The position numbers were made by a program, and so were the translations under genes. A stretch of DNA of 62,594 bases from Candidatus Gottesmanbacteria bacterium. GTDB taxonomy: Bacteria; Patescibacteriota; Microgenomatia; JACOXO01. Location of the stretch: positions 1 through 62,594 of the forward strand of contig JACOXO010000004.1 of NCBI GenBank assembly GCA_016182365.1, given 5' to 3'. Shown here piece after piece: positions 52,135 to 55,947 of the stretch. Positions within the stretch are counted from its first letter, which is position 1, and each line of letters opens with the position of its first letter. The notes under the pieces are model-generated. The model was not told the DNA's origin. It ran no database searches and worked only from the letters and a program-made list of their open reading frames with translations.

Positions 52135-52569
52135 CTATTTCAATTGAGACATATCAGATGCTAATTTAAATCCTTTACTTTTGTAAAATTTATCGAAACT
52201 AAATATAGCATCAGCATCGTTTTCTTCAGCGAGAGCAGCGACGATACAATCATAAATTGTGTTTTTCTTGCTGGTAGTTGGACTAAAAAATTGCATAGCA
52301 TGTTTAAGTGTTTCCTGATTTACCTCTATTACACTAACATTACTATCTGTAAAAGCCGCGGCAGTACCGTAAGCAGTTGCACCGCTATTTAAAACCCTTT
52401 GAATGTGGGTAGTCGCTTCAATGACAGCAGTAACCGGATATAATAACTGTGCATTGGTCTTAACTAAATTTTCAGCAGTTTTAACTGCTTTAAGATGCAG
52501 GCTGTCGTTTGGGGAAACCTGAGCTACAATTGCATCTGCGTCAGCAATAACTCTAAGTGAATTGCTCAT
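52135..52569 (-). CDS. VapC-like PIN-domain ribonuclease toxin
   Basis: 144 aa. The four acidic PIN positions are visible: Asp10/Asp12 (IADADAI), Glu51 (TAVIEATTH), Asp107 (IYDCIVAALA) and Asp126 (FSFDKFY). PIN toxins cut tRNA or rRNA. Its start overlaps the stop of the RHH antitoxin by 4 bp, the usual antitoxin-first order. Confidence 0.88.
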   Translation of the reverse strand: MSNSLRVIADADAIVAQVSPNDSLHLKAVKTAENLVKTNAQLLYPVTAVIEATTHIQRVLNSGATAYGTAAAFTDSNVSVIEVNQETLKHAMQFFSPTTSKKNTIYDCIVAALAEENDADAIFSFDKFYKSKGFKLASDMSQLK

Positions 52570-52832
52570 CCTTCTTTACTCCAGTCTTTACCATATAGGT
52601 ATTCATCGAACTTTTCAACACTATCTTTAGGACCTTTCACTTTATTTATTTTACCGAGTTCGGCAATTTTTAATAAAACTTGCGCGGAAGCGGTTCCTTG
52701 TTGAGCAATACTAGCGATACCTTTTTCTAAGGCTCTTCTTATAATTTCTGCTTTGCTCTTATTTTGAGCCTTAGCAGTTTGAATTATCTTTTTTTCTAGC
52801 TCGTCTGGAACATATAAATAAGTCTTTAACAT
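52566..52832 (-). CDS. RHH/CopG antitoxin partner of the PIN toxin
   Basis: 88 aa. KTYLYVPDELEKKIIQTAKA and KSKAEIIRRALEKGI form a ribbon-helix-helix DNA-binding domain; the tail (VEKFDEYLYGKDWS) would wrap the toxin. It probably represses its own promoter; a TTGTACAACATGTTAAAGT stretch upstream (about 52839-52857) contains inverted words that could be the operator. Confidence 0.85.
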   Translation of the reverse strand: MLKTYLYVPDELEKKIIQTAKAQNKSKAEIIRRALEKGIASIAQQGTASAQVLLKIAELGKINKVKGPKDSVEKFDEYLYGKDWSKEG

Positions 52833-53754: not shown

Positions 53755-54159
53755 ATGAGTGAAAAAGTAATTTATCAACAATTAGCAAGGAAAATTGAAA
53801 GTATAAAACCTGAAGAGTACCAGCAGTATTTAGAAGTTACCGGTTGGCGGATTCTTCGAAGAAATTTTTTTAACAGTGATCTTATAACTGCATACAGCAG
53901 GGCAGAAGCAAATAAACTATCATTGCTTATAAACTCCGATAACGCTGGTTATCAACTTGTTTGGGATAAATATGAGGTTGACAGCGAAATAAAGATTTCA
54001 ATTAAAGATAGAATGCCTGGAAGTTTTGGCCTTCCTGTGTTTTTACTGGAACCATTAACAGAGAAACGTGTTCAACAAATCGATGAACAAGGTGAGGCAG
54101 CAAAACTAGTACGTCCGTGTGACTTAAAAGCACTCTTTAACCAAGATTTAAAAACATAG
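53755..54159 (+). CDS. Hypothetical protein
   Basis: 134 aa, soluble alpha/beta (YLEVTGWRILRRNF; YQLVWDKYEVDSEIKISIKD). TGCTAAAAT at 53738-53746 ends 8 nt before ATG 53755, so the upstream in-frame TTG is rejected. It overlaps the convergent acetyltransferase gene by 23 bp. No family recognised. Confidence 0.6.
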   Translation: MSEKVIYQQLARKIESIKPEEYQQYLEVTGWRILRRNFFNSDLITAYSRAEANKLSLLINSDNAGYQLVWDKYEVDSEIKISIKDRMPGSFGLPVFLLEPLTEKRVQQIDEQGEAAKLVRPCDLKALFNQDLKT

Positions 54160-54529
54160 CCTGTTTTTTGTTTATTTCCGTTTTAAACCCAAACCTTTTA
54201 AATAAATCACTTTTATCTGTTACTGATAATACCTGATATATTCCTTTGCTTTTTGCTTCATCAAGGCATTTTTTAATAAGTAAACTGCCAATTCCTTTGT
54301 TTCTATATTTTGAATAAACTACTAAAGAGCGGACTTCAGCAATTTTCTTACTATACACCTCCAAACTACAGCAGCCAACTATTTTCCTGTTCTCTTCAAA
54401 AACGTAAAAGCTTTTAATTACAGTACTTAGTTCTTTAAGAGATCTGTTAAGAACTTTCCCACTCTTTACCCCTTCCTGAAGAAGGTTATAAACAGCTTTT
54501 AAGTCATTAATATTTGCTTTTCTAATCAT
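54137..54529 (-). CDS. GNAT N-acetyltransferase, ArgA-like, under T-box control
   Basis: 130 aa from ATG 54529, which has GATGGGAAAT just upstream; an in-frame TTG lies 12 bp before. Acetyl-CoA loop RSLVVYSKYRNKGIGSLLI and KSKGIYQVLSV. AEVRSLVV before the loop and the FKRFGF end resemble the acetyltransferase domain of N-acetylglutamate synthase, suggesting amino-acid metabolism. The leader upstream carries a T-box sequence and terminator, so expression should rise when a particular tRNA is uncharged. Confidence 0.85.
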   Translation of the reverse strand: MIRKANINDLKAVYNLLQEGVKSGKVLNRSLKELSTVIKSFYVFEENRKIVGCCSLEVYSKKIAEVRSLVVYSKYRNKGIGSLLIKKCLDEAKSKGIYQVLSVTDKSDLFKRFGFKTEINKKQAMFLNLG

Positions 54530-54548
54530 ATTTCCCATCAAGACAATA

Positions 54549-54575
54549 AAAAAGCCTCACCCTAAGGGCGAGGCT
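54549..54575 (-). terminator. Rho-independent terminator of the T-box leader
   Basis: GCCTCGCCC-TTA-GGGTGAGGC followed by six T on the minus strand, 5 nt downstream of the T-box sequence, as expected for the competing terminator. Confidence 0.92.
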
Positions 54576-54786
54576 TCTCGCGGTACCACCTTGTTTTAAC
54601 TAAAGCTTTAAAAACACACCTTTTGGGTGTGTTAAAATCTAAATACTTTAATTCTTATTAGTGCTCCGTAAATAACGACACACTTTGGATTAATTTTTAC
54701 GGTTTCCTTCCGTCATAGTTTTGCTTTTAGCTTTTTCTATGCAGCTTGTCTATTAGGATAGACTCAAATGCTTTTATTTAACTTAA
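54549..54786 (-). promoter_or_regulatory. T-box riboswitch leader
   Basis: Minus strand, from the predicted start near 54786: a region with several hairpins (ACGG-AAGGAAA-CCGT around 54700), a stem-III-like hairpin AACACACC-CAAA-AGGTGTGTT (about 54614-54634), the conserved T-box AAGGTGGTACCGCGA at 54579-54593, and a terminator. Uncharged tRNA would pair its CCA end with the TGG of the T-box and favour the antiterminator. Stem I is divergent, so I could not assign the specifier codon. The downstream gene is the GNAT at 54137-54529. Confidence 0.85.
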
Positions 54787-54792
54787 GCAATA

Positions 54793-54820
54793 GTATACAA
54801 AAGTTAAAACTAATGTCAAT
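54793..54820 (-). promoter_or_regulatory. Sigma-70-type promoter of the T-box leader
   Basis: TTGACA (54815-54820) and TATACT (54793-54798) with a 16-nt spacer on the minus strand. Unlike most promoters in the window it has a consensus -35 box and a long untranslated leader. Confidence 0.85.
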
Positions 54821-55870: not shown

Positions 55871-55947
55871 TGGTCGGAGAGGCGGGACTTGAACCCGCAA
55901 CCTCATGCTCCCAAAGCACGCGCGCTAGCCAATTGCGCCACTCTCCG
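55871..55947 (-). tRNA. tRNA-Pro (UGG), CCA encoded
   Basis: Minus strand: acceptor CGGAGAG/CTCTCCG, anticodon arm CGTGC-TTTGGGA-GCATG (TGG), T-arm GCGGG-TTCAAGT-CCCGC, discriminator A and genomic CCA. Confidence 0.95.

Follow-up and report, generated by a model that had tools for sequence, protein, structure and literature searches.

A predicted proline-type T-box leader with an ultrashort stem I upstream of a NAGS-like acetyltransferase gene in a Microgenomatia bacterium

The T-box leader upstream of the GNAT gene

The DNA analyzed here (the window) is a stretch of 62,594 nucleotides from a Candidatus Gottesmanbacteria genome, and it carries on its minus strand a gene for a GNAT-type acetyltransferase preceded by a T-box leader (Table 1). 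The initial annotation had placed a promoter, a T-box sequence, a stem-III-like hairpin and a terminator on this strand before a GNAT gene of 130 amino acids, and the sequence, the fold and the match to the Rfam T-box family RF00230 (E-value of 1.1e-7) all bore this out. In the leader, stem I, which holds the predicted specifier codon, precedes stem II and the IIA/B element, in this order. Stem I is ultrashort (AGC-AUUUGA-GUCUAU-CCUA-AUAGAC-AA-GCU) and does not have a distal module. Downstream, a T-box with a UGGN bulge forms part of an antiterminator (AAGG-[UGGUACC]-GCGAG-AAGC-CUCGC-CCUU) with perfect pairing. This antiterminator and the intrinsic terminator are mutually exclusive, the 3' strand of the antiterminator being common to both structures.

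Table 1. Positions of the leader elements, the GNAT gene and the presumed tRNA ligand in the window.
Feature	Position	Strand	Basis or remark
T-box leader including promoter	54548-54819	minus	directly 5' of the GNAT gene
Promoter TTGACA-16-TATACT	54792..54819	minus	11/12 consensus matches
Stem I, ultrashort, with K-turn-like internal loop	54743..54772	minus	sequence and fold
Stem I upper hairpin GUCUAU-CCUA-AUAGAC	54748-54763	minus	sequence and fold
Predicted specifier codon CCU (proline), purine next	54755..54757	minus	register as in proS, proB and other leaders of the class and in orthologous L045
Stem II	54714..54741	minus	RF00230 alignment and fold
Stem IIA/B pseudoknot element ACGGAAGGAAACCGUAA	54697..54713	minus	RF00230 alignment
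Accessory hairpin X, AGUG-UGUCG...CGGAG-CACU	54660..54684	minus	insert in the Rfam alignment, outside the RF00230 consensus
Stem III (long)	54598..54653	minus	fold
Terminator-like hairpin and U-tract, nested in stem III	54610..54632	minus	between hairpin X and the T-box sequence
T-box sequence AAGGTGGTACCGCG	54579-54592	minus	
Antiterminator	54564..54592	minus	T-box bulge UGGUACC at 54582-54588
Intrinsic terminator	54548..54574	minus	overlaps the 3' strand of the antiterminator
GNAT gene, 130 aa	54137..54529	minus	ATG at 54529; S-NAGS/ArgA-like amino-acid N-acetyltransferase
tRNA-Pro(UGG), presumed ligand	55871..55947	minus	A73 and encoded CCA would pair with the UGGU bulge

A default Rfam scan of the window reported tRNAs only and missed the leader. 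When an E-value threshold was used, RF00230 matched positions 54561-54777 of the minus strand over the full model (positions 1-219) with 40.3 bits, and the E-value was 6.9e-8 when the whole 1.04-Mb genome was scanned. This score does not reach the RF00230 gathering score of 93 bits, which is the detection threshold set by the curators and not an anatomical feature. Of 14 control genomes, RF00230 gave a signal in five (Bacillus, Lactococcus, Thermus, Deinobacterium and Corynebacterium) and was silent in the other nine, and a score of this size is therefore informative. Only two of the five exceeded the cut-off and three stayed below it, so that a genuine T-box can score under it. The initial annotation had regarded a covariance score below threshold as grounds for refuting the T-box; such a score was literally obtained, yet it is not a valid refutation because the control T-boxes also score below and the orthologues carry the leader. 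The fold of the leader had an energy of -67.3 kcal/mol versus a mean of -42.9 for shuffled sequences (z = -5.8), and none of 200 shuffles was equally stable. The minus-strand T-box leader is thus genuine, its RF00230 score under the gathering cut-off notwithstanding. One could still see in that score, in the AT-richness and in the degenerate K-turn of the leader the signs of a decayed remnant that has lost its switching. We consider this extremely improbable against an E-value of 1e-7, a perfect antiterminator/terminator pair, an intact promoter, agreeing discriminator bases and the conservation of the leader before orthologues with 47-71% GNAT protein identity. The T-box of the window is probably functional and of the proline type.

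Specifier codon and presumed tRNA ligand

Stem I had been described in the initial annotation as divergent, with no tRNA that could be named from it. It turned out to be ultrashort and readable. In the short-stem-I leaders of the class, the apical loop carries the codon at its 3' end, as a rule with a purine behind it, and the downstream gene agreed with this reading in about 17 related leaders, including those of proS and proB-proS. AUC was read before ileS (L122, L138, and L150), GAC before aspS (L111, L118, and L148) and the PEP carboxylase gene (L120), GUC before valS (L125, L132, and L136), UGG before trpE and trpS (L116, L113, and L003), CGC before argH (L103), CCC before proS (L110, L112, and L143), and CCU before proB-proS (L131). 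UCC was read before serS in L127, where the next base is a C and not a purine, and no codon was readable by the apical-loop rule in the proS leader L137. Specifier codons read in this way tell directly to which amino acid a regulated gene responds.

In the window, the loop of stem I presents CCU-A on a 6-bp stem, and the register of the related leaders gives CCU (proline) as the specifier, the prediction that the initial annotation had proposed to make. Taken alone, this loop also allows a 5-bp stem with the loop UCCUAA, in which CUA (Leu) is followed by A; the T-box would then sense tRNA-Leu(UAG), which is encoded in the genome and likewise has A73, and the GNAT would belong to a leucine response. 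The orthologous leaders speak against this. The loop of L045 (GUUUGG-CAUCCUA-CCAAAC) fits CCU-A and makes CUA plus a purine impossible, the leaders L047, L051, and L054 have CCC as specifier and continue into proS, and L131 presents the same UCCUA loop as the window before proB-proS. We therefore rejected leucine specificity, which is very unlikely. Because the comparative evidence gives CCU as the specifier, the tRNA sensed by the window T-box is most likely tRNA-Pro, as far as sequence can tell. A CCU specifier has also been reported for the Bacillus proBA and proI leaders (PMC13198045).

The variable base of the bulge is consistent with tRNA-Pro, since the UGGU of the window is complementary to A73 of the tRNA-Pro of this genome. 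The anticodons of the tRNA-Pro genes found are UGG and CGG. A tRNA-Pro(GGG) was not found with two patterns in five genomes, and the missing fraction of these genomes may or may not explain this; tRNA-Pro(UGG) would have to read CCU by wobble. Besides the GNAT leader, the genome contains two further T-boxes. One has the specifier AAG and lies before a 93-codon ORF and lysS, and the other (L003 1770-3203, contig C36) reads UGG and lies before a 95-codon ORF, a racemase-like gene and trpS, the last two genes being named by reading the sequence. Their bulges, UGGU and UGGC, match A73 of tRNA-Lys and G73 of tRNA-Trp, respectively. The proS gene of the genome is present, and no T-box was detected before it.

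The acetyltransferase and its genomic setting

The assignment of the GNAT to the ArgA/N-acetylglutamate synthase (NAGS) type in the initial annotation agrees with the NCBIfam profiles, the PDB sequence profiles and the fold. In the NCBIfam ranking, the nearest profile was PRK07757, together with other amino-acid N-acetyltransferases, all of them below their curated cut-offs (125.6 versus 154 bits for PRK07757, and lower for the other ArgA-type equivalogs). The ArgA equivalog label was therefore rejected. The PDB sequence-profile matches were headed by NAGS/ArgA structures. An AlphaFold model of the protein (pLDDT 88) had as its predicted best fold matches M. tuberculosis Rv2747, N. gonorrhoeae NAGS (ngNAGS) and V. 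parahaemolyticus NAGS, and the seven best matches were all NAGS/ArgA. The protein consists of a single GNAT domain with a NAGS-like fold and the acetyl-CoA motif (R/Q-x-x-G-x-G/A), here RNKGIG. Its conserved residues L26, R28, and E64 align with L314, R316, and E353 of ngNAGS, a numbering that assumes a 20-residue tag in chain 2r8v and is backed by four residue identities. These ngNAGS residues have been named as substrate-binding and general-base residues (PMC4490483). With S-NAGS (M. tuberculosis Rv2747) and PRK07757, the GNAT shares the single domain and the best profile and fold matches, and with NAGS the aligned residues and, in some genomes, a position beside argH. Unlike S-NAGS, it has 130 amino acids versus 150-180, it ends before the segment that corresponds to R416/R425/S427 of ngNAGS, and it would be under the control of a Pro T-box and lies, in relatives, in the neighborhood of proS.

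The genome of the window is the sole member of its family and order among the genomes searched. GNAT matches were obtained in 9 genomes of a 374-genome sample of the class, 6 of them (the one of the window included) with at least 48% identity, and a scan of genome contigs added L054, which resulted in seven close orthologues. The named relatives are Levybacteria and Daviesbacteria, which we take to belong to the class Microgenomatia of the Patescibacteria/CPR; the CPR-like character given to the genome in the initial annotation is in line with these Microgenomatia relatives. A Pro T-box lies directly upstream of the GNAT gene in five of the seven close orthologues, so the leader is present before orthologous GNAT genes, as the initial annotation had wanted to see. 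That annotation had also called the GNAT a lone gene. This applies to the window and to the Levybacteria relative L045, where the GNAT stands alone behind the Pro T-box, but not to three Daviesbacteria (L047, L051, and L054), where the arrangement is T-box(Pro)-GNAT-proS and the GNAT overlaps proS. These three relatives make a proline/ProRS regulon the natural setting of the GNAT, and the link to amino-acid supply that had been proposed is supported. In L048, the GNAT is the last gene of an argH-argG-argF-GNAT operon, the leader of which reads CGC by eye and was not reported by Rfam at E<=1, though clear by eye. In L046, the GNAT gene is followed by a T-box(CGC)-argH-argG-argS unit.

These arginine neighbors in L048 and L046, the S-NAGS/ArgA fold and profile, and the Arg T-box that precedes a PRK07757-type GNAT in L147 would fit a working N-acetylglutamate synthase that opens arginine/proline synthesis via acetylated intermediates and is induced by shortage of the end product. 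In the genome of the window, the search covered argF, argG, argH, and argB/proB-type kinases: argG, argH, and proB had no close match, and argF and an argB/proB-type kinase were not detected. The OTC-like match of the genome is pyrB, beside carB and pyrC, and its amino-acid kinases resemble UMP kinases. With the genome 92% complete, absent pathway genes may sit in gaps. Together with the missing C-terminal segment and the joining of the GNAT to proS, not to synthesis genes, in three relatives, this leaves a biosynthetic NAGS rather unlikely. We rejected a proline/arginine biosynthetic role in this genome because the pathway genes searched were not found. The protein is therefore best described as a putative amino-acid acetyltransferase of S-NAGS-like type, placed in a proline (in relatives also arginine) starvation regulon. 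Glutamate, or else a related free amino acid or an analogue, is its probable substrate.

Altogether, these results argue, with good though not full confidence, that a proline-specific, transcription-attenuating T-box with an ultrashort stem I controls a NAGS-like GNAT of the proline/ProRS (in some relatives arginine) starvation regulon. What the computation shows is the anatomy of the leader, its conservation before orthologous genes, the reading of the specifier and the family and fold of the protein; from these we infer the switching in vivo, tRNA-Pro as the ligand and the substrate of the enzyme. Upon proline shortage, the anticodon of uncharged tRNA-Pro would pair with the CCU specifier and its ACCA end with the UGGU bulge, a pairing that would stabilize the antiterminator and allow transcription of the GNAT gene. 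Charged tRNA would let the terminator form. The role of the GNAT may then be to tune or protect proline charging and not to supply a complete arginine pathway. With the specifier read, an unannotated GNAT becomes a candidate member of proline/ProRS control that can be put to the test.

Several other T-box and GNAT arrangements were observed. In L147 (1-800), the PRK07757-type GNAT follows a CGC (Arg) T-box, and its long branch makes its position in the tree unsure. A PRK03624-type GNAT lies behind a T-box in L028 (1400-2145), and in L023 a T-box is followed by a GNAT before an argS-like gene. In the Elusimicrobia loci L049, L050, L052, and L053, the gene after the GNAT homologue encodes, as judged by reading its sequence, an ilvD-like dehydratase. 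T-box leaders L119, L137, L144, and L156 precede genes for CsaA-type tRNA-binding proteins and read CCU or CCC where readable; in L137 and L144, a family-I proS comes after the CsaA-type gene. In the window itself, at 52135-52832 on the minus strand, a PIN-domain gene follows an overlapping 88-codon gene in a toxin-antitoxin-like arrangement.

Hairpin X, the terminator-like hairpin of stem III and T-boxes of Patescibacteria

Most descriptions of T-boxes come from Gram-positive bacteria, with a few other groups besides. Using RF00230 at E<=0.001, we detected T-boxes in 191 of 374 sampled genomes of the class (Microgenomatia) and in 128 of 380 sampled genomes of the phylum. Most of them score under the Rfam gathering score and are therefore invisible to routine annotation. 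Within the open literature searched, no paper joins T-boxes with CPR/Patescibacteria; most subscription papers fall outside that scope, so this absence is not proof of novelty. With class I transcriptional T-boxes (RF00230; Bacillus proBA and proI), the window leader shares a stem I that bears the specifier, stems II and III, the IIA/B element, the UGGN bulge, the choice between antiterminator and terminator, and CCU proline specificity. It differs from them in its ultrashort stem I without distal module, in hairpin X, in the terminator-like hairpin of stem III, in its CPR host and in having a GNAT as the controlled gene. With the class II translational ileS T-boxes of Actinobacteria, it has in common that stem I is short and depends on stem II and IIA/B; unlike these, it carries a transcription terminator and no sequestered ribosome site, and its codon is in the apical loop. 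The device class is already known; new are its variant architecture, its occurrence in this phylum and the coupling of the GNAT to proS.

Hairpin X was found in 29 of the 116 leaders read and in none of their reversed-sequence controls. It consists of an invariant UGUCG...CGGAG, with 2 to 12 nucleotides in between, and a variable closing stem, and the leaders bearing it span several amino-acid specificities (e.g., L010, L022, L045, L113, L116, and L127). The closing stem covaries, with 95.7% of cells paired, 36 double-change cells and a covariation score of 0.663, versus 0.179 for shuffled and no more than 0.138 for slid controls; covariation was counted for hairpin X only, a joint MAFFT alignment of whole leaders being too gapped. 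In 1.06 Mb of loci, every copy of hairpin X with a closing stem of at least 4 bp sits in a T-box leader. A terminator-like hairpin between hairpin X and the T-box was present in 19 of 25 leaders with hairpin X, in 21 of 78 others and in 3 of 515 mononucleotide shuffles.

We read the terminator-like hairpin and hairpin X as a putative pause or early checkpoint. A broader proposal, which we offer tentatively as a possibility short of even odds, is that Patescibacteria have a T-box architecture of their own, in which hairpin X and the terminator-like hairpin of stem III would add a second checkpoint or timed pause before the tRNA end is sensed, and the proline branch of which would have a dedicated ProRS-coupled acetyltransferase. 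Both elements are concrete RNA features that are testable in standard T-box assays. A terminator-like hairpin with a U-tract upstream of the T-box sequence was seen in the window and in 39 other leaders.
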